Assembly: GCA_004298115.1 (NCBI GenBank) | Contig: SCRJ01000003.1 | Span: 1 to 35,817 of the forward strand | Length of the DNA: 35,817 nt | Direction: 5' to 3' | Source: Acidobacteriota bacterium | GTDB taxonomy: Bacteria; Acidobacteriota; Thermoanaerobaculia; Thermoanaerobaculales; Thermoanaerobaculaceae | Shown: piece after piece, positions 2,119 to 35,572 of the stretch | How the letters are laid out: every line of letters starts with the position of its first letter | Position numbering within the stretch: position 1 is the stretch's first letter | Program-made: the position numbers and the translations under genes | The notes under the pieces: generated by a model | The model's database searches: none | What the model was told of the DNA's origin: nothing | What the model saw: the letters and a program-made list of their open reading frames with translations, nothing else

Positions 2119-2201
2119 TCGCTACCTCCGCCGGCGCAGGATAGACCAGGGGCGGCGCGAAGCCAACGGTCCAAACCTCGCGATCGAGGACTCCCCCGGG
2201 C

Positions 2202-2207
2202 TACACT
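2202..2207 (+). promoter_or_regulatory. Candidate -10 element (TACACT), leaderless start
   Basis: TACACT ends 6 bases before the GTG start codon at 2214. Transcription starting 6-7 bases downstream of a -10 would begin at or next to the start codon, and no Shine-Dalgarno sequence is present. No convincing -35 is visible. The same arrangement recurs at several genes in this window. Confidence 0.45.
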
Positions 2208-2213
2208 TGCGCC

Positions 2214-3092
2214 GTGGCTGGGAAATCCCAGGATCCGGGTTGGGCGTGGTTCGGCGGGCGGCTGGTTGGGTTCTCGGAAGCGCGCGTCCCGCTCGAGGAT
2301 CGCGGCCTGCAGTTCGGCGAGAGCCTGTACGAGGTGGTGGCCGTGGTCGCGGGCGAGCCGTTCCGCCTGCCCGATCACGTCGAGCGCATGGCGGCCGGCG
2401 CGCGCGAGATCGGCCTGGGGGGAGGGGTTCCCGATCTTTCCAGGTGGAGGGGGCTCATCGCGCAGCTCTACCGCCGCGAACCTCACCGGACCGCCGTCTT
2501 GTACGCGCAGCTGACCGGGGGAACCGCGCCCCGCCGCCACCTCCCCCCCGACCGCCCGGAACCGTTGTTCTTCGCCTACCTCCGCCGCTTCAGCTTCCCC
2601 GTCCCCGCGGAGACCGCCAAAGGGATCGCAGCGATCACGGTGCCGGAGACCCGCTGGCAGCGCCGCGACGTCAAGGCGACGATGCTGCTGCCGGCGGTGC
2701 TGGCCAAGAAGGACGCGGCGGACCGCGGCGCCGACGAGGCGATCTTCGTGGGTCAGGATGGTTTCGTCGACGAGGGCGCCTCGAGCACGGTGTTCGCGGT
2801 GCACGGCCGCACCGTCAGCACGCCTCCACCCACCCAACGGATCCTCCCCGGGGTGAGCACGAAGGCGGTCGAGGCGATCTGCGGCGACCTCGGGGTCGCA
2901 TTCGCCGCGCGGCCGATGACGCTCAGCGACCTCCACCGAGCCGACGAGGTCTTCGTCGCATCCACGACGCTCCTGCTCATGCCCGTCGTACGCCTCGACG
3001 GCAACCCCGTGGGGAACGGGGCGCCGGGGAGCGTGACGCTCCAGCTCGCCTATCACTTCCAACGCCAGTTCTGGGGGCAGCCCGGACCGTGA
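2214..3092 (+). CDS. Class IV aminotransferase (D-amino acid / branched-chain type)
   Basis: 292-residue PLP-dependent fold-type IV aminotransferase, the family of D-alanine transaminase (Dat), branched-chain aminotransferase (IlvE) and aminodeoxychorismate lyase (PabC). The PLP lysine is K154 in RDVKATMLL, matching the RD(I/V)K motif of the family. The conserved glutamate that contacts the PLP ring nitrogen is E187 in VDEGASSTVF, and a C-terminal ASTTLLLMPV stretch matches the cofactor phosphate-binding loop. The overall pattern is closest to D-amino acid transaminases, which make D-Glu or D-Ala for peptidoglycan, but IlvE-like or other specificities are possible. The start is a GTG with no Shine-Dalgarno sequence; a TACACT -10 sits 6 bases upstream, which supports this start as leaderless. 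The gene is divergent from phosphomannomutase and convergent with the downstream reductase. Confidence 0.85.
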   Translation: MAGKSQDPGWAWFGGRLVGFSEARVPLEDRGLQFGESLYEVVAVVAGEPFRLPDHVERMAAGAREIGLGGGVPDLSRWRGLIAQLYRREPHRTAVLYAQLTGGTAPRRHLPPDRPEPLFFAYLRRFSFPVPAETAKGIAAITVPETRWQRRDVKATMLLPAVLAKKDAADRGADEAIFVGQDGFVDEGASSTVFAVHGRTVSTPPPTQRILPGVSTKAVEAICGDLGVAFAARPMTLSDLHRADEVFVASTTLLLMPVVRLDGNPVGNGAPGSVTLQLAYHFQRQFWGQPGP

Positions 3093-3110
3093 CCGGATCG
3101 CGACGCGACC

Positions 3111-3140
3111 CGCCGCGGCCGCATCCGGGCGACCGCGGCG
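3111..3140. terminator. Stem-loop between convergent genes
   Basis: Perfect 8-base inverted repeat: CGCCGCGG (3111-3118) and CCGCGGCG (3133-3140), with a 14-base loop, in the 63-base gap between the convergent aminotransferase and reductase genes. There is no T-run, so it would be an atypical, possibly bidirectional, terminator or an mRNA 3'-end stabiliser. Confidence 0.4.
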
Positions 3141-3155
3141 CGAGGACGGCCCGCC

Positions 3156-3881
3156 TCAGGAACCCAGCCCGCCGTCGACGCGCAAGGTCGTACCCGTGAT
3201 GTAGGAGGCCGCGTCCGAGAGCAGGAACGCCACGGCCGCCGCCACCTCCGCGGGCCGGCCGAACCGGCCGAGGGGGATGCTGGCGACAGCGCGCGCCCGC
3301 CGCACCCCGCCGAGCCCTTCGACGAGGTCGGTGTCCACCCACCCCGGCACCACGGCGTTGACCGTGATCCCGTACCTTCCGACCTCACGGGCCAACGCCT
3401 TGCCGAAGGCGTGCAGGCCTCCCTTGGCGGCGGCATAGTTCGCCTGGCCTGCCTGGCCGGTGACGCCGGCCAGCGAGCCGACGTTCACGATCCGCCCGGC
3501 GTGGGCGTGCAGCATCGGCCGCATGAAGGCACGTGTGAGGCGGTAGGCCGCGGTCAGGACCGTGTCGACGACGACGTCCCAGCGCGGCTCGTCCATGAGG
3601 AGGAAATGTCCGTCGCGCAGGACGGCGGCGTTGTTCACGAGCGCGTAGATGCCGTCGCCGGCGATCGCCTCGACGACCGTCTCCACGGCCCGGGGGTCCG
3701 TGACGTCGCAGCGGTGCGCGACGGCCTCCCCTCCGTTCGTCGCGACGAGATCGGCCACGGTCCGGGCGGCGTCGTCGCGGCAGCGGTAGAGGAAGTGGAC
3801 GCGGTACCCGTCGGCCGCCAGCCGCTCGACGACGGCGCGTCCGATCCCCCGCGAGCCTCCGCTGACCACCGCGTTCAGCAT
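3156..3881 (-). CDS. SDR-family oxidoreductase, FabG-like
   Basis: 241-residue classical short-chain dehydrogenase/reductase. The N-terminal cofactor motif is SGGSRGIGR (residues 7-15), the adenine-ring motif is NNAA, the catalytic serine lies in NVGSLAG, and YAAAKGG holds the Tyr-x-x-x-Lys pair. The C-terminal ITGTTLRVDGGLGS is typical of FabG. The family reduces 3-oxoacyl-ACP or related ketones with NAD(P)H. A dedicated fatty-acid role is not shown because no fab or acp genes are adjacent, so it could act on another ketone, sugar or polyketide substrate. The ATG at 3881 is chosen over a TTG 12 codons upstream because the fold begins directly after it and a TACTCT -10 element lies 6 bases upstream. 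It follows the glycosyltransferase on the same strand with a 64-base gap. Confidence 0.88.
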   Translation of the reverse strand: MLNAVVSGGSRGIGRAVVERLAADGYRVHFLYRCRDDAARTVADLVATNGGEAVAHRCDVTDPRAVETVVEAIAGDGIYALVNNAAVLRDGHFLLMDEPRWDVVVDTVLTAAYRLTRAFMRPMLHAHAGRIVNVGSLAGVTGQAGQANYAAAKGGLHAFGKALAREVGRYGITVNAVVPGWVDTDLVEGLGGVRRARAVASIPLGRFGRPAEVAAAVAFLLSDAASYITGTTLRVDGGLGS

Positions 3882-5962: not shown

Positions 5963-7294
5963 TCACTTCGAGCCCGGTTCCCGCTTCCGCGCGCGCAGCT
6001 CGGCGAGCCGCTCCCGGATGCGCTTCTCCCAGCCCTCCTCGGTGGGCTCGAAGTAGCTCGCGCCGGCAAGCTGCGGCGGGAGGCACGCCATGTCCGCGAC
6101 CTTGCCCTTGGTGTCGTGCGCGTAGACGTAACCCTCGCCGTACCCGAGGTCCTGCATCAGCTTGGTCGGGGCGTTGCGGATGTGGAGCGGCACGGGGTAC
6201 GCCGGCTGGTCGGCGACGGCGCGCTGGACGCGCCCGTACGCCAGGTACAGCGCGTTGGACTTGGGGGCGAGGGCGAGGTAGACCGCGGCCTGCGCGAGCG
6301 CGAGGGCGCACTCGGGCATCCCCATGTGCTCGACGGCGTGCGCCGCCGCCCCGGCCTGCTCGAGCGCCCTGGGGTCCGCCATCCCGACGTCTTCCGACGC
6401 GACGCGCAGCAGCCGCCGCGCGATGAAGCGGGGGTCCCCGCCCCCCTCCAGCATGCGCCCGAGCCAGTACAGCGACGCGTCCACGTCCGAGTTGCGGATC
6501 GACTTGTGCAGCGCGGAGACGAGGTTGTAGTGCTCCTCCCCTTCCTTGTCGTACTTGGCCAGGCGCCGCTGCGCGGTTCGGCGCACCAGGTCGGCGGTGA
6601 CGGCGCCCCCGGGTCCCGCCGCGTCGGCGGCCACCTCGAGCAGGTTGTACGCGACCCGGGCGTCGCCGCCGGCGAGGCGGACGATCCCGTCGAGGGCCCC
6701 TTCCCCGACGGTCAGGCCGCGGTCGCCGACGCCCCTGCCGGCATCCGCCAGCGCGCGCTCGAGGAGCAGACGGACGTCGGCGTCGCCGAGCGCCTCGAGG
6801 ACGTAGACCTTGACCCGCGAGAGCAGGGCGGCGTTGAGCTCGAACGAAGGGTTCTCGGTGGTGGCGCCGAACAGCACGATGTCGCCGCTCTCGACGAACG
6901 GGAGGAAGGCGTCCTGCTGCGACCTGTTGAAGCGGTGCACCTCGTCGACGAAGAGCACGGTGCGGCGGCCGGTGGCGGCGCGCAGGCGCCGCGCCGACTC
7001 CATGACGGCGCGCGCCTCCTTCACGCCCGAGAGCACGGCGGAGAAGGTCACGAACTCGGCGTCACACGCCGCGGCCAGCACCCTCGCCAGCGTCGTCTTG
7101 CCGCTGCCGGGCGGGCCCCAGAAGACGAGGGACGGCAGCTCGCCGCGCCCGAGAAGCCGGCGCAGCACGCCCTCCTCCCCGACCAGCGTGCCCTGCCCCA
7201 CGACCTCGGCGAGGGAGCGCGGCCTCATCCGCTCGGCGAGCGGCGTGCCGGGCGCGAAGCCGTCGCTGCCTCCGAACGGGAGCCTGCCGCTCAT
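5963..7294 (-). CDS. rarA: Replication-associated recombination protein A (AAA+ ATPase)
   Basis: 443-residue RarA/MgsA/WRNIP1 family clamp-loader-like ATPase acting at stalled or gapped replication forks. Visible features are the N-terminal PLAERMRPRSLAEVVGQ, Walker A GPPGSGKTT (60-68), Walker B FVDEVHRFN (D117, E118), sensor 1 GATTENPSFE, and the family C-terminal region with LHKSIRNSDVDASLYWL, RRLLRVASEDVG and the signature PVPLHIRNAPTKLM. Length matches the family (about 440). The ATG at 7294 overlaps the stop of the upstream class II aldolase gene by 4 bases (ATGA), which fixes the start and suggests translational coupling. In-frame sequence upstream of it is Arg-rich shadow of the aldolase gene. 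Confidence 0.96.
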   Translation of the reverse strand: MSGRLPFGGSDGFAPGTPLAERMRPRSLAEVVGQGTLVGEEGVLRRLLGRGELPSLVFWGPPGSGKTTLARVLAAACDAEFVTFSAVLSGVKEARAVMESARRLRAATGRRTVLFVDEVHRFNRSQQDAFLPFVESGDIVLFGATTENPSFELNAALLSRVKVYVLEALGDADVRLLLERALADAGRGVGDRGLTVGEGALDGIVRLAGGDARVAYNLLEVAADAAGPGGAVTADLVRRTAQRRLAKYDKEGEEHYNLVSALHKSIRNSDVDASLYWLGRMLEGGGDPRFIARRLLRVASEDVGMADPRALEQAGAAAHAVEHMGMPECALALAQAAVYLALAPKSNALYLAYGRVQRAVADQPAYPVPLHIRNAPTKLMQDLGYGEGYVYAHDTKGKVADMACLPPQLAGASYFEPTEEGWEKRIRERLAELRARKREPGSK

Positions 7295-7872
7295 ATCGTC
7301 ACCGTCCGGTCGACGGCCGCGAGCGCGACGGCCGCGAGCGACTCCAGGACCTCGACCCGCTCCAGCGCGCGCCAGACGTCGTCGCCGGCGCACAGCACGC
7401 CGTGGCGGGCAAGGACCGCGGCGGGCGCCCGCTCGATGGCGCGGGCGCACGCTGCGGCCAGCTCAAGACTGCCCGGCGCGACCGCGGGGACCCGCTCGAT
7501 CCGCGGCACCAACGCCGTGCCCTCCTCGAGCGCGCCCGGGTCCGGCAACCGCCCGAGCGCGGCCAGCGCCAGCACGCGCCGCGGGTGCGCGTGGACGAGG
7601 GCGTTTACGCCCGGGCAGGCGCGGTAGACCGCCAGGTGGGCCGCCGCCTCGGAGGACGCACCGGCGGGAGCCGGCTCGGCCAGGCGGCAGCGCACGAGGT
7701 CGGTCGCGACGAGGCGACCCTTGTCGGCGCCGCGGGGGGTCACGAGCACCGCCCCGTCATCGAACCGGCAGGACAGGTTGCCCTCCCGGCCGCAGATCAG
7801 ACCGCGGCGGGCCAGGACGGCGCCGGCCGCGACCAACTCGGCGCGCCGCAACGCCTCGATCCAGATCGTCAT
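7291..7872 (-). CDS. Class II aldolase/adducin family protein
   Basis: 193-residue zinc enzyme of the L-fuculose-1-phosphate aldolase (FucA), ribulose-5-P epimerase (AraD) and MtnB superfamily. The phosphate-binding segment GREGNLSCR, the loop TPRGADKG, acid/base E75 (SSEAAAH), and zinc ligands H94 and H96 (HAHP) and H157 (RHG) are all present. The spacing is the same as the E73/H92/H94/H155 set of E. coli FucA as I recall it, so an active lyase is likely. The substrate is not identifiable: no fucose, arabinose or methionine-salvage genes are adjacent. The ATG at 7872 is preferred to a GTG at 7890. The gene overlaps rarA by 4 bases and probably shares its transcript. Pairing a sugar-phosphate aldolase with rarA looks like operon convenience rather than a pathway link. 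Confidence 0.85.
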   Translation of the reverse strand: MTIWIEALRRAELVAAGAVLARRGLICGREGNLSCRFDDGAVLVTPRGADKGRLVATDLVRCRLAEPAPAGASSEAAAHLAVYRACPGVNALVHAHPRRVLALAALGRLPDPGALEEGTALVPRIERVPAVAPGSLELAAACARAIERAPAAVLARHGVLCAGDDVWRALERVEVLESLAAVALAAVDRTVTI

Positions 7873-7928
7873 CGCCCCACCCCAAGACACCGCCCGGCGG
7901 GAGCCCGGCGCCAGACGGAGGGACTGCA

Positions 7929-7950
7929 GGCGCCGCCGGCCGGCGGCGCC
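7929..7950. repeat. 22-bp perfect palindrome between TPR and aldolase genes
   Basis: A perfect, spacer-free palindrome with left half GGCGCCGCCGG and right half CCGGCGGCGCC lies in the 85-base gap between the TPR gene stop (7958) and the aldolase start (7872), both on the minus strand. It could be a dimeric-protein operator or an RNA hairpin that attenuates read-through. No T-run follows. Confidence 0.5.
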
Positions 7951-7957
7951 GTCTCGG

Positions 7958-8584
7958 TCACTTCGTCCTGCGGGCGATCTCGCCCTCGAGTCCGGTCAGG
8001 TCGGGGATGTTCGGAACCGTGCCCTTGAGCTGCTGCAGCTTGTCGAGCTCCTTCTTGGCCCCGGCGGGATCGTTGAGGTCGAACAGGCGCACGACCGCGG
8101 CGTTGTACCGCGACTGCCAGTGCTCCGGGTGCAGGTCGGCGGCCCGGTCGAAGAGCTCGAGCGCTTTCTTCGGCTGCCCGGTCTCCTTGTAGCAGACCCC
8201 CAGGTCGGTCATCACGTCGGGCGAGTCGTCCTTGATCGCACGCGCCTTCTCGTAGTAGTCCACGGCCTTGACGAAGTCGTTGAGGTCGTACTCGGTGTTG
8301 GCCATCTGCACGAGATGGTCGTAGTTCTTGGGGTCCTTTGCGAGCAGGCCCTCGAGTTCGCGGGCCTGTTCCATGAGCCGTGGGTTGGCCGTGGCGGCGG
8401 TGCGGCCGCCTTCCGGAGGTTTGGCCGCCTCGCCCGAGAGCGGGGGCGCGCCGGGGACGCCGGCGTGCGGGTTGACCGCCGCCGACGGCGCCGGCGTCAC
8501 CCGCGGACCCTGGCCGATGAGGTAACCGACGAAAAAGCCGAGCAAGACGCCGATGACGGCGGTGACGACAGGGTTCTTCCACAT
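7958..8584 (-). CDS. Membrane-anchored TPR protein
   Basis: 208-residue protein with one N-terminal transmembrane helix (about residues 5-24, with GVLLGFFVGYLIGQG), a Pro/Ala-rich linker (27-65) and about three to four tetratricopeptide repeats (about 70-190). Examples are the segment YDHLVQMANTEYDLNDFVKA and the repeats centred on PDVMTDLGVCYKETG and WQSRYNAAVVRL. This layout resembles the TPR part of cytochrome c maturation protein CcmI/NrfG and many periplasmic scaffold proteins, with the repeats most likely outside the cytoplasm. No specific partner can be named. It lies 25 bases downstream of the secreted coiled-coil protein gene, so the two probably share an operon. Confidence 0.8.
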   Translation of the reverse strand: MWKNPVVTAVIGVLLGFFVGYLIGQGPRVTPAPSAAVNPHAGVPGAPPLSGEAAKPPEGGRTAATANPRLMEQARELEGLLAKDPKNYDHLVQMANTEYDLNDFVKAVDYYEKARAIKDDSPDVMTDLGVCYKETGQPKKALELFDRAADLHPEHWQSRYNAAVVRLFDLNDPAGAKKELDKLQQLKGTVPNIPDLTGLEGEIARRTK

Positions 8585-24437: not shown

Positions 24438-24454
24438 TCGCGTGGAGACGAAGT
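24435..24454. promoter_or_regulatory. Candidate ArsR operator
   Basis: Inverted repeat ACTTCG (24435-24440), 8-base spacer, CGAAGT (24449-24454). It overlaps the -10 element and the predicted transcription start, the usual place for ArsR-family autorepression. No other dyad was found in this promoter. Confidence 0.5.
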
Positions 24455-24455
24455 G

Positions 24456-24887
24456 ATGGCCAACCCTCTCGACCGGCTGATCCGCATCCACAAGGCGCTT
24501 GCCCACCCGGCGCGCGTCCGCGTCCTCGCCATGTTGCGCCGCGGCGAGCTGTGCGTTTGCCAGATCAACGCCGTGATCGGCCTCGCCCCCTCGACGATGT
24601 CCGCCCATCTCCGCGAGCTCAAGGACGGCGGTCTCGTCGCCGAGCGCAAGGCGGGCCGCTGGGTGCACTACGGCCTCGCCGCTGAGGGCGCCGCCGCCGA
24701 GGCGCTCGCCGCGCTGTGGCCGGCGCTGGAGGGAGACCCCCAGGTGGCCCAGGATGCCGCGTTCCTCGCCGGCCTCACGGAACTCCCCGTCGAGGCGATC
24801 TGCCGTCCCGATTTCGACCTGGCCGGCCTGCGGCGGGCGTGCTGCGCCCCGCGCCGGTCGGCTCCCCGAACCGCGAAAGGAAGGTAG
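24456..24887 (+). CDS. arsR: ArsR-family arsenic-responsive repressor
   Basis: 143-residue winged-helix repressor. The ArsR metal box ELCVCQ contains C33 and C35, as in the ELCVCDL box of E. coli-type ArsR. The recognition helix region IGLAPSTMSAHLRELKDGGLVAERKAGRWVHY (about 41-70) and wing follow. A C-terminal tail carries AICRPDF and a CC pair (RRACCAPR) that may supply the third As(III) ligand. As(III) binding should release it from the operator at 24435-24454. It leads arsM by 3 bases. ATG at 24456 is preferred over GTG at 24453. Confidence 0.92.
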   Translation: MANPLDRLIRIHKALAHPARVRVLAMLRRGELCVCQINAVIGLAPSTMSAHLRELKDGGLVAERKAGRWVHYGLAAEGAAAEALAALWPALEGDPQVAQDAAFLAGLTELPVEAICRPDFDLAGLRRACCAPRRSAPRTAKGR

Positions 24888-24890
24888 GCG

Positions 24891-25730
24891 ATGTCAAATC
24901 AGGAGATCAAGAGCTCGGTGCGCGCGCACTACGCGTCGATTGCCCGGCAGAGCACGGGCTGTTGCGGCCCGGCCGGCTCCGGCGGTGGCTGCTGCGGCAC
25001 CTCGGCCCCGGTCGCGATCAGCAAGGAGGTCGGCTACACCGACGCCGACCTGGCCGCCGTTCCGGAGGGGTCGAACCTGGGCCTCGGCTGCGGCAACCCC
25101 CTCGCGTTCGCCGCGCTCGCCGCCGGCGACGTCGTCGTCGACCTCGGCTCCGGGGCCGGCTTCGACTGCTTCCTCGCCGCCCGCCGGGTGGGGGCGAACG
25201 GCCGGGTGATCGGCGTGGACATGACGCCGGAGATGCTCGACCGGGCGCGCCGCAACGCCGCGCTGGACGGCGTCGCCAACGTCGAGTTCCGCCTCGGGGA
25301 GATCGAAAACCTTCCGGTCGCGGACGCGACGGCCGACGTCGTGATCTCGAACTGCGTCATCAACCTCTCGACCGACAAGCCGCGCGTCTTCCGCGAGGCG
25401 CTGCGGGTGCTCAAGCCCGGCGGGCGGCTCATGGTCTCGGACCTGGTGCTCGCCCGTCCCCTCCCGGACAGCGTGGCGCGCTCGGTGGCCGCATATGCGG
25501 GCTGTATCGCGGGGGCGATGCTCAAGGACGACTACCTCGCCGCCATCCGCGCCGCGGGTTTCGTGGATGTGGAGGTGCTGGCGGAATCGGGCTACGACAT
25601 CGGCGGCGCGAACGCTGACGACACTGAGACGGCACTGCTCGAGGCCACGGGAACGACCCCGGAGGAAGCGCGCGCGGCGGCGGACGCGGTGCGCAGCGTC
25701 AAGGTCTCGGCGAGGAAAGGAGCGCTTTGA
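24891..25730 (+). CDS. arsM: Arsenite S-adenosylmethyltransferase ArsM
   Basis: 279-residue SAM-dependent enzyme that methylates As(III) to mono-, di- and trimethyl arsenicals in the cytoplasm. The three conserved As-ligand cysteines of the family are present: C67 (GLGCGNP), C155 (SNCVINLS) and C205 (YAGCIAGA). The SAM motif is VVDLGSGAGFDCFLAA. The N-terminal cysteine clusters STGCCGPAG and GGCCGTS (about 22-37) may hand over arsenic. Length is as expected. It starts 3 bases after arsR and its stop overlaps the arsP ATG (TGATG), so all three genes are one operon. Confidence 0.96.
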   Translation: MSNQEIKSSVRAHYASIARQSTGCCGPAGSGGGCCGTSAPVAISKEVGYTDADLAAVPEGSNLGLGCGNPLAFAALAAGDVVVDLGSGAGFDCFLAARRVGANGRVIGVDMTPEMLDRARRNAALDGVANVEFRLGEIENLPVADATADVVISNCVINLSTDKPRVFREALRVLKPGGRLMVSDLVLARPLPDSVARSVAAYAGCIAGAMLKDDYLAAIRAAGFVDVEVLAESGYDIGGANADDTETALLEATGTTPEEARAAADAVRSVKVSARKGAL

Positions 25731-26806
25731 TGGCGGCGTCCGCCGGTGCGGTGGCGGCGGTCGCTCACGACCGGGCCGCCCGATGGCGAAGGCGGCTCGT
25801 CGGAGCGGCCTTCGCCTTGCTGGGAGCCGCGCTCTGGGCGGGGCTGTACGTCATCCTCGCTCCCATCGCGCGTGCCCTGACCTACCGGCTCTTGGCGCTG
25901 GCCCCGGGATCCCATCTCGCCTTGGCGGTGGAGTTCTTCGCCTTCGAGGCGCCCAAGGTGCTCATGCTCCTCCTCCTCGTGGTCTTCGGGGTGGGCGTCG
26001 TGCGCTCGTTCTTCACGCCCGAGCGCACCCGGCGGATCCTGGCCGGCACGCACGAGTCGGTCGGCAACGTGCTCGCGGCCCTGCTCGGCGTCGTGACTCC
26101 GTTCTGCTCGTGCTCGGCCGTGCCGCTGTTCATCGGCTTCGTGACCACCGGCGTTCCGCTCGGCGTGACGTTCTCCTTCCTGGTGGCGGCACCGATGATC
26201 AACGAGGTCGCTCTCGTGCTCCTGTTCGGCCTCTTCGGCTGGAAGGTCGCCGCCGTCTACATGGGGACGGGCCTGGCCATCGCCATGGGCTCGGGTTGGG
26301 TGATCGGCCGCCTGCGGATGGAGCGCCACGTGGAGCCGTGGGTGTACGAGATGAAGTCCGGGGCCGCCGCCGACGGCGCCGGCCCGACCACCTGGGCCGA
26401 CCGTGCCCGTTTCGGGCTCGAGGCCGTGCGTGAGATCGTCGGCAAGGTGTGGCCGTACGTGCTGGCCGGGATCGCCGTCGGGGCCGGCATCCACGGGTGG
26501 GTGCCGACGAACTTCATGGCCTCGTTCATGGGCAAGGGCGTGTGGTGGGGGGTGCCGCTCGCCGTGTTGATCGGCGTCCCGATGTACTCCAACGCCGCCG
26601 GTATCATCCCGATCGTCAGCGCGCTGCTCGAGAAGGGCGCCGCCCTCGGCACCGTGCTCGCCTTCATGATGGCGGTCATCGGCCTCTCGTTCCCGGAGAC
26701 GATCATCCTGCGCAAGGTGCTGCGCCCGCGTCTGATCGCGACGTTCGTCGGCGTCGTCGCCGCCGGCATCCTGACTGTCGGCTTCCTGTTCAACGCCCTG
26801 TTCTAG
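25730..26806 (+). CDS. arsP: ArsP-type organoarsenical permease
   Basis: 358-residue permease of the DUF318/YraQ/ArsP family with about eight to ten transmembrane helices. The signature TPFCSCSAVPLF has C126 and C128, and a second loop reads IGVPMYSNAAGIIPI. ArsP exports trivalent methylarsenite and aromatic arsenicals. Because arsM makes methylarsenite, placement directly after arsM is the expected partnership and strengthens ArsP over other YraQ-family roles. The ATG at 25730 shares its A with the arsM TGA stop. The 3' end overlaps the convergent hydrolase by 17 bases. Confidence 0.9.
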   Translation: MAASAGAVAAVAHDRAARWRRRLVGAAFALLGAALWAGLYVILAPIARALTYRLLALAPGSHLALAVEFFAFEAPKVLMLLLLVVFGVGVVRSFFTPERTRRILAGTHESVGNVLAALLGVVTPFCSCSAVPLFIGFVTTGVPLGVTFSFLVAAPMINEVALVLLFGLFGWKVAAVYMGTGLAIAMGSGWVIGRLRMERHVEPWVYEMKSGAAADGAGPTTWADRARFGLEAVREIVGKVWPYVLAGIAVGAGIHGWVPTNFMASFMGKGVWWGVPLAVLIGVPMYSNAAGIIPIVSALLEKGAALGTVLAFMMAVIGLSFPETIILRKVLRPRLIATFVGVVAAGILTVGFLFNALF

Positions 26807-29736: not shown

Positions 29737-29754
29737 GCCGGCCGGGACCGGTAC

Positions 29755-29783
29755 GGACACCCGAATTGACAGCCTTGGACACC
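29755..29783 (+). promoter_or_regulatory. Direct repeat GGACACC flanking the HTH-EIIA promoter
   Basis: GGACACC occurs at 29755-29761 and again at 29777-29783, 22 bases apart (about two helical turns), bracketing the -35 element at 29766-29771. A related GACACC lies at 29818-29823. TGGACA (29776-29781) also pairs with TGTCCA (29804-29809) across the predicted start. A regulator binding site, possibly for autoregulation, is likely. Confidence 0.4.
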
Positions 29784-29795
29784 ATGTCGTAGGAT
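29766..29795 (+). promoter_or_regulatory. Promoter of the HTH-EIIA/hyf operon
   Basis: TTGACA (29766-29771), 18-base spacer, TAGGAT (29790-29795). It predicts a start near 29802 and a leader of about 35 bases with a G-rich ribosome site (GGGGGG at about 29826-29831) before the GTG at 29837. Confidence 0.6.
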
Positions 29796-29836
29796 GGCAT
29801 TGATGTCCACTGCGTGAGACACCACGGGGGGCCAGG

Positions 29837-30544
29837 GTGCAGTTGACAGTTCGCGACGTGGCACAGCTTCTCGCGGTTTCCGAGAAGACCGTCTACCGCT
29901 GGGTCGGCCAGCGCAAGCTCCCCGCCTACCGCGTCAACGAGCAGCTCCGCTTCAACCGCGCCGAGCTTCTCGAGTGGGCCAGCGCCAACAAGGCCCAGGT
30001 CTCCCCGGAGCTGTTCGCCGAGCCCGAGAGCGTCGCCACGCCGGCGCCGTCGCTCGCGCAGGCGCTGCGCGAGGGAGGAATCCACTACCGGGTGGGCGGC
30101 GACGACACCCAGGGCGTCCTGCGCTCGGTGGTCGAGCTGATGCGCCTCCCGGAGGAGGTGGACCGCGGCTTCCTGCTCCAGGTGCTGCTGGCGCGCGAGG
30201 CGCTGCAGTCCACCGGGATCGGGGACGGCGTCGCCATCCCGCACCCGCGCAGCCCGATCGTCCTCCACATCTCGCGCCCCTCGGTCACGCTCTGCTTCCT
30301 CGAGAAGCCCGTGGAGTTCGGCGCCCTCGACGGCCGCCCCGTGCACGCCCTGTTCACCCTGGTCTCGCCGACGGCGCGCGCCCACCTGCAACTCCTCTCG
30401 CGCGTCGCCTACGGCCTCCGCGACGAGGCGTTCCGGGTCCTGATCGCACGGGTGGCCGCCCGCGACGAGATCCTCGCCGCCGCCGCCCGCGTCGACGGTG
30501 ACGTCGCGGCGCATGCCGCCGCCGCGCCGGCCGCGGAGGTCTGA
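29837..30544 (+). CDS. HTH DNA-binding / PTS EIIA(Ntr)-like fusion regulator
   Basis: 235-residue fusion. Residues 1-50 form a MerR/excisionase-type helix-turn-helix (LTVRDVAQLLAVSEKTVYRWVGQRKLP then LRFNRAELLEW). Residues ~72-220 are a PTS EIIA domain of the fructose/nitrogen (Ntr) class, with the conserved LLAREALQSTGIGDGVAIPHPR and the phosphorylatable H136. The domain order suggests a DNA-binding switch read out by PTS phosphorylation or by EIIA-type protein contact. No PTS EI or HPr genes are in the window. Its TGA is directly followed by the GTG of hyfB with no gap, so it is the first gene of that operon. A weakly acid C-terminal tail is Ala-rich. Confidence 0.85.
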   Translation: MQLTVRDVAQLLAVSEKTVYRWVGQRKLPAYRVNEQLRFNRAELLEWASANKAQVSPELFAEPESVATPAPSLAQALREGGIHYRVGGDDTQGVLRSVVELMRLPEEVDRGFLLQVLLAREALQSTGIGDGVAIPHPRSPIVLHISRPSVTLCFLEKPVEFGALDGRPVHALFTLVSPTARAHLQLLSRVAYGLRDEAFRVLIARVAARDEILAAAARVDGDVAAHAAAAPAAEV

Positions 30545-32527
30545 GTGGGCGCGTTCCTGGCGGCGTTGGGTTTGGTCGTCGCGGGCGGCGTGGCGTCGCT
30601 CCTTACGGGCCGCCGCTGGCGGTCGCGCGTCGCCGTCGCTGGGATCGCGGCGGGCAGCCTCTGCGGCCTTCTCGCCGCGTTGCGCGTCCTCGCGGGCGCC
30701 GCGACCGTTGCGCTGCACGTCCCGTGGCGGGTCCCCTACGGGTCGTTCTCGCTCGCGATCGATCCTCTCTCCGCGCTCTTCCTCGCGCCGCTGTTCGTGC
30801 TCGCGCCGGCGGCTGCCGTGTACGGCGGCCGCTACCTCGAGGAGGAGCACGGCGGGGGGGCGATCGGCGGGGTCTGGCTCTTCACCAGCCTGCTCATCGT
30901 CGGCATCGCGGTGGTCTTCACCGCCCGCAACGGCGTGCTGTTCCTCCTCGCGTGGGAGGTGATGTCGGTCGCCGCGTACTTCCTGGTGACGTTCGAGCAC
31001 CACCGCGACGAGGTCCGCGAGGCGGGGTGGACGTACCTGGTCGCGACGCACCTGGGCACGGCGTTCCTGATCGCCATGTTCCTGCTCATGGCACGGGCCG
31101 GCGGATCGCTGGATTTCGACCGGATGCGGCTCGGTCAGGCCTCGCCGGCGCTCGCCGGTCTCCTGTTCGGCCTCGCCGTCGTCGGCTTCGGCACCAAGGC
31201 CGGCCTCGTCCCGTTCCACGTCTGGCTCCCCGAGGCGCACCCGGCGGCGCCGTCCCACGTCTCGGCCCTGATGTCCGGCGTCATGATCAAGGCCGGCATC
31301 TACGGGCTCCTCCGCGTGCTGCTGCTGCTGCCGCCGCCGCCGGCGTGGTGGGGCTGGCTGCTGGTCGCCATGGGTCTCGTCTCCGGCGTCGGCGGCGTCC
31401 TCTACGCCCTGGCTCAGCACGACCTCAAACGGCTGCTCGCCTACCACAGCGTCGAGAACATCGGCATCATCACGCTCGGCCTCGGGGTCGGCCTGGTCGG
31501 GGCGCACGCCGGGCTGCCGTTGGTGGCCCTGGCGGGTTTCGCCGGCGCCCTCCTCCACGTGCTCAACCACGCGCTGTTCAAGGGCCTCCTCTTCCTCGGG
31601 GCCGGAGCCGTCGCGCACGCGGCCGGGACCCGCGACCTCGACCACCTCGGCGGGCTCGGCAAGCGCATGCCGTGGACCGGGGCCGCCTTCCTGATCGGTT
31701 CCGCCGCGATCTCGGGGTTGCCGCCCCTCAACGGCTTCGTGAGCGAATTCCTCATCTACTTGGGCGCGGCCGCGGCCGCCCTGACCGGGCGGGGAGCCAC
31801 CCTCGCAGCCGCCGTCGCCGGCGGCGCCGGGCTGGCGCTGATCGGCGGGCTCGCCCTGGCCTGCTTCACCAAGGCGTTCGGCTCGGTATTCCTCGGCGAC
31901 CCCCGCAGCCCGCACGCCGCGCACGCCGTCGAGGTTGCGGCCGCGCTGCGCCTGCCGATGGCGGCCCTCGCGGCTGCCTGCGTCGCCATCGGTCTCGGCG
32001 CCCCACTCGTCCTGACCGGGATGACGGGCGTTCTCGCCCAGCTGGCGCAGGGATTCGGCTTGCCCGCGCCCGACGCGCAGATCGCGACGCTCCGGAGCGC
32101 GCTGGCCTGGGTTGCGCTGGCCTCGCTGACGCTCCTCGCCGCCGTCGCCCTCGCCGTCCTCGCCCGGCGCTTCCTGTTGCGCGGGCGAACGGTCACGGCA
32201 GCGCCGACGTGGGGCTGCGGCTACGCCGCGCCCACGGCGCGGATGCAGTACACCGCCTCCTCGTTCGCCCAGCCGCTGGTGGACCTGTTCCGACCGGTGC
32301 TGAGGACCGCGGCGTTCGGGACGCCGCCGTCGGGAGCATTCCCGGGCCCGGCCTCCTTCGCGTCAGCAACGCCCGACCCGGTCGACCGGGGCCTCTACCG
32401 GCCGCTGTTCGCCGGCGCCGCGGCGTTGTTCGGCCGCCTGCGCTGGGTGCAGCACGGCCGCATCCAGCTCTACCTGCTCTACCTCGTCGCCACGCTGCTC
32501 ATCCTCCTGCTGTGGAAGGTGAGGTAG
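30545..32527 (+). CDS. hyfB: Hydrogenase-4-like subunit B (NuoL/Mrp antiporter-type)
   Basis: 660-residue polytopic proton/cation pump subunit of the NuoL/HyfB/HycC family. It carries the proton_antipo_M core with LLAWEVMSVAAYFLVTFEHH (the key Glu-bearing TM5), GTKAGLVPFHVWLPEAHPAAPSHVSALMSG (the key Lys region), DLKRLLAYHSVENIGII and HALFKGLLFLGAGA. It ends with a CGY-containing HyfB-type tail (TWGCGYAAPTARMQYT). Length and tail fit HyfB/HycC better than NuoL. It starts with GTG immediately after the EIIA fusion stop and is followed by hyfC after 2 bases. Confidence 0.88.
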   Translation: MGAFLAALGLVVAGGVASLLTGRRWRSRVAVAGIAAGSLCGLLAALRVLAGAATVALHVPWRVPYGSFSLAIDPLSALFLAPLFVLAPAAAVYGGRYLEEEHGGGAIGGVWLFTSLLIVGIAVVFTARNGVLFLLAWEVMSVAAYFLVTFEHHRDEVREAGWTYLVATHLGTAFLIAMFLLMARAGGSLDFDRMRLGQASPALAGLLFGLAVVGFGTKAGLVPFHVWLPEAHPAAPSHVSALMSGVMIKAGIYGLLRVLLLLPPPPAWWGWLLVAMGLVSGVGGVLYALAQHDLKRLLAYHSVENIGIITLGLGVGLVGAHAGLPLVALAGFAGALLHVLNHALFKGLLFLGAGAVAHAAGTRDLDHLGGLGKRMPWTGAAFLIGSAAISGLPPLNGFVSEFLIYLGAAAAALTGRGATLAAAVAGGAGLALIGGLALACFTKAFGSVFLGDPRSPHAAHAVEVAAALRLPMAALAAACVAIGLGAPLVLTGMTGVLAQLAQGFGLPAPDAQIATLRSALAWVALASLTLLAAVALAVLARRFLLRGRTVTAAPTWGCGYAAPTARMQYTASSFAQPLVDLFRPVLRTAAFGTPPSGAFPGPASFASATPDPVDRGLYRPLFAGAAALFGRLRWVQHGRIQLYLLYLVATLLILLLWKVR

Positions 32528-32529
32528 GC

Positions 32530-33441
32530 GTGAACTGGGCCCCTCTCCTTCTCTACCTCGCGGCGATCGCGTTGGCGCCCCTGCTCGGCGGCGTGATCGC
32601 CAAGACCAAGGCGTTCTTCGCCGGGCGAACCGGCGCCCCGCTGCTGCAGGGCTACTTCGACCTCGCCAAGCTGCTGCGCAAGGGGGCGGTGTACTCCGCC
32701 ACCACGAGCTGGGTCTTCCGCGCGGGTCCCGTCCTCAGCATCGGCGCGGTCGCCGTCGCGCTGGCGCTCGTCCCGATGGGCGGGACGCCGGCCCCGCTCG
32801 CCTTCCCCGGGGACTTCCTCGTGCTCGCCTACCTCCTCGCCCTGGCGCGCTTCTTCACCGTCATCGCGGCGCTCGACACCGGGTCGGCGTTCGAAGGAAT
32901 GGGGGCCAGCCGGGAGGCTCAGTTCTCGGCGTTGGCGGAGCCGGGGCTCGTGCTCTGCTTTTTCGCTCTGGCCCGCAACGCGGACGCCCTCTCGCTCTCG
33001 GCCGGCCTGGGAGCGCTGTCGCCGGGCGCCTGGCGCTCGCACGCGGCGGTCCTCGCCTTGGTCGCGGCCGCGCTCTTCATCGTCTTCCTCGCCGAAAACG
33101 CCCGCATCCCGGTCGACGACCCGACCACCCACCTCGAGCTGACGATGATCCACGAGGTGATGGTGCTCGACCACGGCGGTCCCGACCTGGCGCTCATCGA
33201 GGCCGCGTCCTGGTTGAAGCTGTGGGTGCTCGGCGCCCTCGTCGTGGGCGTGGTGGTTCCGGTGCGGACCGGCGTCCCCGTCATGGACGGCGGCGTGTTC
33301 GTGGCGGCGATGCTGCTGCTCGGCGTGGCCGTCGGCGTCGTCGAGTCGGCGATGGCGCGGCTGCGGCTGCTGCGCGTGCCCCAGCTCCTGGTGGCCTCCG
33401 GCGTCCTCGCCGCGCTCGCCACGGTGCTGATCTCGGGATGA
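32530..33441 (+). CDS. hyfC: Hydrogenase-4-like subunit C (NuoH-like)
   Basis: 303-residue membrane subunit of the NuoH/HyfC/HycD family, which anchors the catalytic arm to the membrane. Recognisable parts are GRTGAPLLQGYFDLAKLLRK near the N terminus, the HyfC signature FEGMGASREAQFSALAEP, and ENARIPVDDPTTHLELTMIHE (about 191-211), the amphipathic loop that shapes the quinone or equivalent site. Eight helices are expected. GTG start, 2 bases after the hyfB stop. The stop overlaps the next ATG (ATGA). Confidence 0.9.
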   Translation: MNWAPLLLYLAAIALAPLLGGVIAKTKAFFAGRTGAPLLQGYFDLAKLLRKGAVYSATTSWVFRAGPVLSIGAVAVALALVPMGGTPAPLAFPGDFLVLAYLLALARFFTVIAALDTGSAFEGMGASREAQFSALAEPGLVLCFFALARNADALSLSAGLGALSPGAWRSHAAVLALVAAALFIVFLAENARIPVDDPTTHLELTMIHEVMVLDHGGPDLALIEAASWLKLWVLGALVVGVVVPVRTGVPVMDGGVFVAAMLLLGVAVGVVESAMARLRLLRVPQLLVASGVLAALATVLISG

Positions 33442-34100
33442 CGGCCATGTTCGAGATCAACACCCTGCTCGTCGGCCTGCTGCTCGTCGACTTCGTGCTG
33501 CTCGGCGCCAGCCGCCTCGGCACCAGCGTGCGGCAGGTCGCGGCGCAGGGGGCGCTGCTCTCGCTCCTCACCCTGGCCGAGCACGCCGGTTGGGGCGCGC
33601 CGTGGCGGGTCTGGCTGCTCGCGCTCGGCAGCGGCGTGGTCAAGGCGGTCGTCTTCCCGTACTTCCTGCGCCGGGCGCTGCGTGAGGCCGACGTCCGGCG
33701 CGAGATGGCGCCCTACGTCGGCTTCACCGCCTCGGTCCTCGTCGGGGTCGCGGCGCTGGCCGCCTCGCTCTGGTTGGCGTCGCGCCTGCCGCTCCCCGGC
33801 CCCGTCCCGTCGCCGTTGCTCGTGCCGGTGTCGCTGTTCACCGTGCTGGTCGGCATGTTCCTCCTCGTCAGCAGGCGCAAGGCGCTGACCCAGGTCGTCG
33901 GCTACCTCGTCGTGGAAAACGGCGTGTTCTGCTTCGGCCTCGCCCTGCCCGAGGACGCTCCGCTCCCGGTCGAGGTCGGCATCCTGCTCGACATCTTCGC
34001 CGCGGTCTTCATCATGGGCATCATGATCTACCAGATCAGCCGCGAGTTCGACGACATCGACACCGGCCGGTTGACCAGCCTTCGGGACGAGGCGTCATGA
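33438..34100 (+). CDS. hyfE: Hydrogenase-4-like subunit E
   Basis: 220-residue membrane protein whose C-terminal half is NuoK-like (SRRKALTQVVGYLVVENGVFCFGLALP). This fits HyfE, which in E. coli couples to the antiporter-like subunits. About six helices and the ending YQISREFDDIDTGRLTSLRDE are typical. ATG overlaps the hyfC stop by 4 bases; a second ATG is 9 bases further in. No separate HyfD is found between hyfC and this gene. Confidence 0.85.
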   Translation: MTAMFEINTLLVGLLLVDFVLLGASRLGTSVRQVAAQGALLSLLTLAEHAGWGAPWRVWLLALGSGVVKAVVFPYFLRRALREADVRREMAPYVGFTASVLVGVAALAASLWLASRLPLPGPVPSPLLVPVSLFTVLVGMFLLVSRRKALTQVVGYLVVENGVFCFGLALPEDAPLPVEVGILLDIFAAVFIMGIMIYQISREFDDIDTGRLTSLRDEAS

Positions 34101-35572
34101 TCGCGGCGTTGGTCCTCGTGCCGGCGTTCGCCGGAGTGCTGGCGCTGTTGCTGCGCCGCGATCGGCTGCGCCGCGCGCTCCTGGTGGCGACGGCCTTGAC
34201 CCATCTGGGCCTCGTGGCGGCGGTGTGGCGGGCGACGCCCGCGGCGCCGCCAACCGCATGGCTCCGCCTCGACCCGGTCGGGACGCTCGTCCTCGGCGTC
34301 ACCAGCGTCCTCTTCGCGGTCGCGGCGATCTACGCGGTCGGCTACCTCGCGCACGAGGTGCGCGCCCCCAGACCGGACATGGAGGAGGACGCCCTCTTCG
34401 CCAACGGGCCCGAGGCCGTGTTCACCGCGTGCCTCCTGTTCTTCCTCGCCACCATGACCCTGGTGACGGTCAGCCAGAACCTCGGGGTCCTCTGGGTGGC
34501 GGTCGAGGCGACCACGTTGGCGAGCGCGCCGCTGATCTTCTTCCACCGCCACCACCGTTCCCTCGAAGCAACCTGGAAGTACCTCCTGATCTGCTCGGTG
34601 GGGATCGCGGTGGCGCTACTCGGCAACTTCTTCCTCGCGTTCGCGGCGTCGTTCGGACCGGCCGGCTCCGGCTCGCTGGTCCTGAACGAGCTCATCGCCG
34701 GCGCCCCGGGCCTGCACGTCCGTTGGCTCAAGGCGGCGTTCGTCCTCCTGCTGGTCGGGTACGGGACGAAGATGGGGCTGGCCCCCCTGCACACCTGGCT
34801 GCCCGACGCCCACGCCGAGGCGCCCTCCGTTGTCTCCGCGCTGCTCTCCGGCGCGCTCCTCAACTGCGCGTTCCTCGGAATCGTGCGCGCCTATCAGGTC
34901 CTTTCGGCCGCCGGCCAGGGGCGCTTTGCCGGCGATCTCCTCATCGACATCGGCCTGTTCTCGATGGCGCTGGCCGCGGTGTTCATCGTTGCGCAACCCG
35001 ACTTCAAGCGGCTGCTGGCCTACTCGTCGGTCGAGCACATGGGCATCCTCGCGGTCGGGATGGGTCTCGGCGGCGGCGCCGTCTTCGGCGCGCTGCTGCA
35101 CCTCGTCAACCACTCCCTGGCCAAAGGGATGCTGTTCCTGCTTGCGGGCAACATCCTCGCCGCCTACCGTTCGAAGTCGACCGCCGGCGTCCGCGGGGTG
35201 GGTGCGGCGTTGCCCGTGACGGCCGCGCTGTGGGTGGCGGGCCTGCTCGCGATCACCGGCTCGCCTCCGTTCGGACCGTTCCTCTCCGAGCTGGTCATCG
35301 TCAAGGGTGCGATCGACCAAGGTCACCCGGTCGCCACCGTCCTGTTCCTCCTCTTCCTGGCGGCGGCGTTCGTCGGCATGGCCCGGCCGATGCTGACCAT
35401 GGTCCAGGGCGAGCCTCTCGCCTCGCTGCCCCCGTCCGGCCGCGACCGCTGGCTGGCCGTGGCGCCGCCGGCCGCGCTCGGCCTCGCCGTCCTCCTCCTC
35501 GGCCTCTGGGTTCCGTCGTGGCTGAACGACGTGCTCCGCGCCGCGGCCCGGGTCGTGGGGGGCGGGTCATGA
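34097..35572 (+). CDS. hyfF: Hydrogenase-4-like subunit F (antiporter-type)
   Basis: 491-residue antiporter-like subunit of the NuoM/HyfF family. Key parts are LWVAVEATTLASAPLIFFHRHHRSLEATWKY (Glu in TM5), GYGTKMGLAPLHTWLPDAHAEAPSVVSALLSG (Lys region), PDFKRLLAYSSVEHMGIL and HSLAKGMLFLLAGNI. These proton-channel residues are all present, so it should pump or conduct cations. ATG overlaps the hyfE stop (ATGA), and its stop overlaps the ATG of the next gene in the same way. Confidence 0.92.
   Translation: MIAALVLVPAFAGVLALLLRRDRLRRALLVATALTHLGLVAAVWRATPAAPPTAWLRLDPVGTLVLGVTSVLFAVAAIYAVGYLAHEVRAPRPDMEEDALFANGPEAVFTACLLFFLATMTLVTVSQNLGVLWVAVEATTLASAPLIFFHRHHRSLEATWKYLLICSVGIAVALLGNFFLAFAASFGPAGSGSLVLNELIAGAPGLHVRWLKAAFVLLLVGYGTKMGLAPLHTWLPDAHAEAPSVVSALLSGALLNCAFLGIVRAYQVLSAAGQGRFAGDLLIDIGLFSMALAAVFIVAQPDFKRLLAYSSVEHMGILAVGMGLGGGAVFGALLHLVNHSLAKGMLFLLAGNILAAYRSKSTAGVRGVGAALPVTAALWVAGLLAITGSPPFGPFLSELVIVKGAIDQGHPVATVLFLLFLAAAFVGMARPMLTMVQGEPLASLPPSGRDRWLAVAPPAALGLAVLLLGLWVPSWLNDVLRAAARVVGGGS

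Follow-up and report, generated by a model that had tools for sequence, protein, structure and literature searches.

We have found that, in an Acidobacteriota contig, a gene encoding a winged helix-turn-helix (HTH) fused to an EIIA domain of the phosphotransferase system (PTS) heads an operon for an energy-converting-hydrogenase-related (Ehr) complex, and that the linkage between this fusion and Ehr is real and widespread. The protein is probably a PTS-responsive transcription regulator that controls the Ehr operon of which its own gene is the first. The window analysed is the whole of contig C71 (SCRJ01000003.1; 35,817 nt), which ends inside hyfG, and its relevant features are collected in Table 1. 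The domains, both active-site histidines, the linkage across phyla, the operator, the tie between operator and recognition helix, and the presence of EI and HPr were computed from sequence.

Ehr complexes are widespread, and their partners and control are not established. PTS relays that are 'incomplete', lacking sugar permeases, are in turn common, and few of their outputs are known. A regulator with a defined operator would give the regulatory PTS a specific output and offer a handle on the timing of the pump. A search of open-licence PMC papers returned no description of an HTH-EIIA fusion associated with Ehr or hyf.

Table 1. Position of the features discussed in this work within the window.
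Feature	Position	Strand	Basis or remark
Predicted sigma70-like promoter TTGACA-N18-TAGGAT	29766..29795	+	1 found vs shuffles mean 0.0; -10 TAGGAT at 29790-29795
Predicted operator	29766..29809	+	TTGACA 29766-29771, TGGACA 29776-29781, TGTCCA 29804-29809
HTH-EIIA fusion gene	29837..30544	+	ORF, 235 aa, GTG start; 79 related loci; AF2 model
HTH_17 / excisionase-type winged HTH, residues 3-51	29843..29989	+	Pfam PF12728, TIGR01764
PTS EIIA-2 domain, residues 83-214	30083..30478	+	Pfam PF00359; PtsN entries in PDB matched in both sequence and fold
H136 codon CAC, predicted phospho-histidine, in IPHPR	30242..30244	+	Sequence; His kept in Ehr-linked homologues
H183 codon, second EIIA active-site His	30383..30385	+	Invariant in 41/41 Ehr-linked homologues
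hyfB-like antiporter-type membrane subunit	30545..32527	+	PF00361; NF005086 617.9 bits, under equivalog cut-off 667
hyfC-like (NuoH-type) membrane subunit	32530..33441	+	PF00146
hyfE-like membrane subunit	33438..34100	+	NF008556; PF00420 below cut-off
hyfF-like antiporter-type membrane subunit	34097..35572	+	PF00361, NF005044
hyfG-like (EhrL) large subunit, start, cut by contig end	35569..35817	+	Continues on G000:C158

Domain architecture of the fusion protein

An earlier note on this DNA had described the protein as a MerR/excisionase-type HTH fused to an EIIA(Ntr) domain with an intact H136, encoded immediately before hyfB. The fusion is borne out by scores above the Pfam cut-offs for both domains, HTH_17 (PF12728) giving 57.5 bits against a cut-off of 27 (E 1.7e-15) and PTS_EIIA_2 (PF00359) 80.9 bits against 27 (E 1.2e-22). 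In NCBIfam, the HTH belongs to the excisionase family TIGR01764 (48.3 vs a cut-off of 28.8) and falls below the curated cut-off of the BldC family NF033787 (23.2 vs 77); its recognition helix reads SEKTVYRW. AlphaFold2 modelled the protein as two confident domains (mean pLDDT 87.8), and Foldseek matched the EIIA part of the model to the solved PtsN 3urr (target TM 0.82), PtsN proteins being the nearest solved relatives of this domain by sequence as well as by fold. The fusion scores below the curated cut-off of the PtsN equivalog TIGR01419 (58.4 vs 138.7 bits); the domain is thus EIIA-2-like and, judging from this score, not a PtsN equivalog. H136 is indeed intact, and the TGA stop codon of the fusion (30542-30544) is followed directly by the GTG of hyfB, so that the spacing is zero.

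The complex encoded by the operon

The exact 90-bp identity between the end of the window and the end of contig C158, which holds the rest of hyfG and hyfI, establishes the order of the operon as HTH-EIIA, hyfB, C, E, F, G, I. The previous description of these genes as a Hyf-like operon was right in that hyfB, C, E and F, and then the first part of hyfG, follow on the same strand, but the complex is of the Ehr type and not a Hyf hydrogenase. In its large subunit LAGDSTVAH replaces the N-terminal CxxC motif (L1 = LAGDxT..H, no Cys), and the C-terminus, DFPLCNKSFNLSYCGHDL, is without CxxC; the NiFe Cys of L1/L2 are likewise missing from the large subunit in most of 70 orthologues. A [NiFe] hydrogenase of group 4 (Hyf/Hyc) was therefore rejected, the four L1/L2 Cys ligands being absent, and the complex was classed as Ehr, with a Hyf/Ech-like set in the order HyfB, C, E, F, G, I and a large subunit free of NiFe ligands. 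Among the subunits, Pfam recognised a 49-kDa/30-kDa protein of the complex I type and an Oxidored_q6 subunit that also has Fer4. By analogy with its family, the Ehr complex of the window would be an ion-translocating redox complex.

Variation was seen among related operons. The antiporter-type subunit HyfB is tandem-duplicated in about half of loci L062-L140 (e.g. L076, L081, L104), which may alter how many ions are pumped for each electron pair. A decaying Ehr operon is present at L048:4688-7329 (genome G014), with a frame-broken HTH-EIIA and a HyfI-like remnant, and HyfB was not detected there.

Association of the fusion with Ehr across genomes

A scan of named genomes yielded 425 relatives, from which the best 79 loci were used for the linkage count. 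HyfB directly follows the fusion, on its strand, in 77 of these 79, a figure that covers the most similar relatives and describes this clade, not all HTH-EIIA proteins. The best 79 loci carry a dozen deposited phylum names, their record titles naming Acidobacteria, Planctomycetota, Verrucomicrobia, Deltaproteobacteria, Spirochaetaceae, Latescibacterota, Fibrobacteria, Elusimicrobia, Eisenbacteria, GN15, Omnitrophota and others.

In 297 genomes belonging to the phylum of the window, a profile search (fusion threshold E<=1e-25) detected the fusion in 24; the Ehr large subunit was present in 67 of the 297, and 22 of the 24 fusion carriers have both. In 16 of these 22 double carriers a few kb separate the two genes on a shared contig; in the other six they are on separate contigs, and the five inspected (all but G184) show the fusion adjoining HyfB at a contig end. 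The remaining two of the 24 carriers have weak paralogues, that of G266 sitting before a ClC-like protein gene; in the other, G312, nuoL/M/N-like complex I genes are directly followed by a lone EIIA gene (L168:4556-8671). Among 199 Planctomycetota genomes, most strong fusion matches again precede HyfB, with a few orphans. The survey of HTH-EIIA genes beside hyfB that had been proposed as a check thus shows that their neighbours are not random.

Many Ehr operons lack the fusion (e.g. family f33), close HTH-EIIA orphans occur in G466 and G489, and the L132 copy precedes a SulP gene instead. When all other ORFs nearby were clustered, no other recurrent partner was found near the operon; no mobile-element gene therefore accompanies it, and a mobile-element excisionase was rejected on this ground and on the fixed place of the gene in the operon.

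Departures from the usual arrangement were also noted. About 1.5-1.7 kb separates HTH-EIIA from HyfB in L250 (G360) and L251 (G497), the spacer of G360 holding one gene, with the product MPTTALPVTLSSP... The Ehr operon begins with a tandem pair of HTH-EIIA genes in L044, L045, L047, L116, L118 and L096; in L044, L045 and L047 the EIIA of the first copy is diverged, yet this copy has kept the EKTVYR helix and the operator.

A conserved predicted operator upstream of the fusion

Shared motifs were sought in the 160 bases that precede each of 98 distinct Ehr-linked genes. The 7-mer ATGTCCA occurs in 47 of these sequences, where 2 would be expected. Counting half-site pairs with at most one mismatch, direct repeats at exactly 10 bp were found 32 times for TGTCCA (0.0 expected) and 21 times for TGGACA (0.05 expected), and inverted TGTCCA/TGGACA pairs 18 times at 28 bp and 16 times at 38 bp (0.05 expected). 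At least one module is present in 58 of the 98 upstream regions versus 8 of 8926 background windows from the same loci, the module spacings having been picked from the same data, and background and controls scored by the identical rule. The 40 copies without operator at the stringency used include some with diverged helices or second tandem copies, and others in which none is visible. In Ehr operons for which no upstream regulator was found, 0 of 21 regions preceding hyfB (500 bp at most, shorter at some contig ends) contained a module.

With second tandem copies excluded, the modules are confined to copies with the recognition helix EK[TS][VI]YR (62/89 vs 0/22; Fisher p 5e-10, a value made optimistic by phylogenetic relatedness), and the association was repeated in additional Planctomycetota loci, most of them not in the initial set. 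Three loci with tandem paralogues have the operator in front of the first HTH-EIIA copy, and the SulP-linked homologue L132 also has a TGTCCA operator.

In the window, the conserved predicted operator falls in 29750-29830, the region that the earlier note had named for binding assays, and overlaps the -35/-10, its half-site TTGACA doubling as the -35 box. The three-part pattern occurs once in the 4-Mb genome. In many relatives TGTCCA-N4-TGTCCA stands directly after the -10, a position typical for repressors. Exact TGTCCA-N4-TGTCCA sites number 22 in 40 genomes (4 for the reversed control), 9 being upstream of HTH-EIIA and about 8 belonging to an ATCYGTG-type repeat; a wide regulon was rejected, no second target family appearing among these sites of the 40 genomes. 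The 10-bp direct repeat would fit the mode of binding of BldC, a MerR-like winged HTH that occupies direct repeats in a head-to-tail manner (PMC5859096). The conserved promoter operator predicted here before these genes, made of TGTCCA/TGGACA half-sites, is new, and the putative targeting of DNA by the fusion is strongly supported.

PTS components and conservation of the active-site histidines

EI is present in 49 of 49 and HPr in 48 of 49 genomes tested, most of them carriers. The genome of the window has an EIIA-Man-HPr-EI cluster on contig C90 and, just upstream, an HprK-like ORF recognised by reading of the sequence. EI is also found in same-genus genomes without the fusion; its co-occurrence is therefore necessary and not specific, and was rejected as proof. 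The PTS_EIIC permease (PF02378, the only profile tested) is missing in 34 of 42 carriers, the window's own genome included, which points to a regulatory PTS and not to sugar uptake as the input. Control by a sugar PTS is accordingly disfavoured, and 'sugar or nitrogen status', formerly put forward as the signal, was too specific. Groups with a regulatory EI were mostly devoid of PTS transporters in a phylogenetic survey of the system (PMC2405797). Judging from these gene sets, the input signal is likely to be PEP/pyruvate through the regulatory PTS.

H136 is kept in 39 of 41, and H183 in all 41, Ehr-linked homologues from sets not chosen by motif; the 79-locus set was left out of this count because it had been selected with a pattern containing H136. 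In two Ehr-linked homologues (L049, L153) H136 is replaced by Q or R, and in both the recognition helix has diverged and the operator is missing, which suggests a changed or relaxed regulator.

Proposed regulation and alternative explanations

According to our proposal, the winged HTH would bind TGTCCA half-sites, 10 bp (one helical turn) apart and inverted, around the core promoter (29766-29809), and in the simplest mode would act by default as a repressor of the promoter common to the fusion and hyfB-C-E-F-G-I. The EIIA domain would be phosphorylated at H136 by HPr, itself charged by EI and PEP, with H183 assisting, and this phosphorylation would alter the DNA binding or the oligomer state of the regulator. 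The PEP/pyruvate (energy) state would thereby set the expression of the ion-translocating Ehr redox complex, a phospho-control that, like the sign of the response, we infer from sequence features. Given the half-site, its spacing and the helix presumed to read it, a single protein and an 80-bp DNA fragment would suffice for a direct test of the idea.

The EIIA domain might instead act mainly after translation, docking on membrane or peripheral subunits of Ehr and gating pumping or electron transfer, with the HTH serving for autoregulation only. There is a precedent for docking in the action of unphosphorylated PtsN on YcgO (PMC11808508), and in the wider family HTH-EIIA genes lie directly before genes for ion translocators of the ClC (L188-L191), Kef-type (L198) and SulP (L132) classes; the mean pairwise identity of the regulator, 0.61 versus 0.60-0.62 for HyfG/HyfI and 0.48 for HyfB, would also agree with it. 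Nevertheless, EIIA distances track the structural subunits weakly (r 0.23-0.40 vs 0.65-0.76 among subunit pairs tested, in a set whose EIIA variance is lowered by having been chosen by EIIA similarity). Such weak co-divergence does not suggest a tight structural partner and speaks mildly against docking, which the strong conservation of the HTH and its operator also disfavours, and we consider this explanation unlikely. The fusion as a structural subunit of the complex was rejected on the same weak co-divergence.

It is less probable again that the protein is a DNA-binding autoregulator whose EIIA is a dimerisation or ligand-binding module and no PTS phospho-acceptor in vivo, the operon answering some other signal. 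Both histidines are conserved outside the motif-selected sets (39/41 and 41/41), and EI and HPr occur in nearly all genomes tested; the presence of EI does not, on the other hand, tell carriers from non-carriers, and natural Q and R variants at H136 exist within the operon context, although these two His-less cases also have diverged helices and no operator. A chance or hitch-hiking neighbour, either a mobile-element excisionase-like gene or an unrelated ptsN-like gene abutting hyfB, is very hard to reconcile with the linkage across phyla (77/79 and 22/24), with the conservation of the operator together with the gene, and with the lack of any other recurrent neighbour and so of a mobile-element gene; the excisionase type of the HTH is what would speak for it. 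A transcription regulator responding to the PTS is thus the reading we prefer.

The wider HTH-EIIA family

HTH-EIIA genes of other clades were found directly before ClC chloride-channel genes in L188-L191 (about 2150-3690, PF00654) and, by sequence, before a ClC-like gene in L162 (about 6250-8040). A Na/H exchanger gene (PF00999, Kef-type) follows HTH-EIIA at L198:2147-3628, and a SulP permease with a STAS domain at L132:7018-8673. In a sister family (L053, L055, L051), HTH-EIIA has the helix AERTLVRL and an FLHARRR motif and adjoins a small AAA/kinase-like gene; a ClC gene is also near sister-family HTH-EIIA in L053, L055 and L059. The position of HTH-EIIA before ClC, exchanger and SulP genes, together with the control of an antiporter by PtsN (PMC11808508), suggests an ion-translocator switch as a common theme. 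HTH-EIIA proteins could then be, as a tentative generalisation for which we would not claim even chances, a general class of PTS-responsive switches that act locally on membrane ion translocators, with Ehr, ClC, Kef-type and SulP clades. If true, the permease-less PTS would couple a PEP/pyruvate energy signal to membrane energisation and ion flux in many bacterial phyla.

Elsewhere in the window (24453-26806), genes for an ArsR-like regulator, an ArsM-like methyltransferase and an ArsP_1 permease stand in a row, with a Pfam match (PF03773) for the permease only; this is likely to be an arsenic-resistance cluster.

Comparison with known systems

Examples of Ehr have been reported in Geobacter sulfurreducens (GSU0739-45; PMC7894505) and in Margulisbacteria (PMC6349859). 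Both resemble the complex of the window in having NuoL-like, HyfE-like and hydrogenase-like large and small subunits without NiFe ligands, and differ in that our search of the two papers found no regulator named. A locus-tag search for the gene upstream of the Geobacter Ehr operon returned nothing.

In E. coli, the binding of PtsN to YcgO, a K+/H+ antiporter, is governed by the phosphorylation state of PtsN (PMC11808508). PtsN (EIIA-Ntr) has in common with the window's protein the EIIA-2 fold and the active-site His, and it is a case of an EIIA phospho-state governing an ion-translocating membrane system, as we propose for the fusion. It is, however, a stand-alone protein without DNA-binding domain that works by protein contact, whereas the EIIA of the window is fused to an HTH, is encoded in its presumed target operon and is preceded by a conserved predicted operator. 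BldC (PMC5859096) likewise has a MerR-like winged HTH without coiled coil, and its direct-repeat binding has a parallel in the predicted 10-bp direct repeat; unlike the fusion, it is about 68 aa long, has no sensor domain and uses the half-site AATTxxxxC instead of TGTCCA.

The chlamydial ptsN_2, annotated as 'PTS IIA protein + HTH DNA-binding domain' (PMC5723314), is alike by annotation alone. No characterised function was found for it in our search. To our knowledge, there is no Ehr operon in Chlamydia.

MtlR and LicR combine a DNA-binding domain with an EIIA-type domain, and transcription is altered by their PTS phosphorylation; they are large multi-domain regulators (PRDs, EIIB, EIIA) of sugar-PTS operons. 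The protein of the window differs from them as a minimal HTH_17-EIIA on a respiratory-type complex, found mostly in permease-less genomes. The fusion would be the PTS-controlled EIIA-domain type of regulator applied to a respiratory-type complex.
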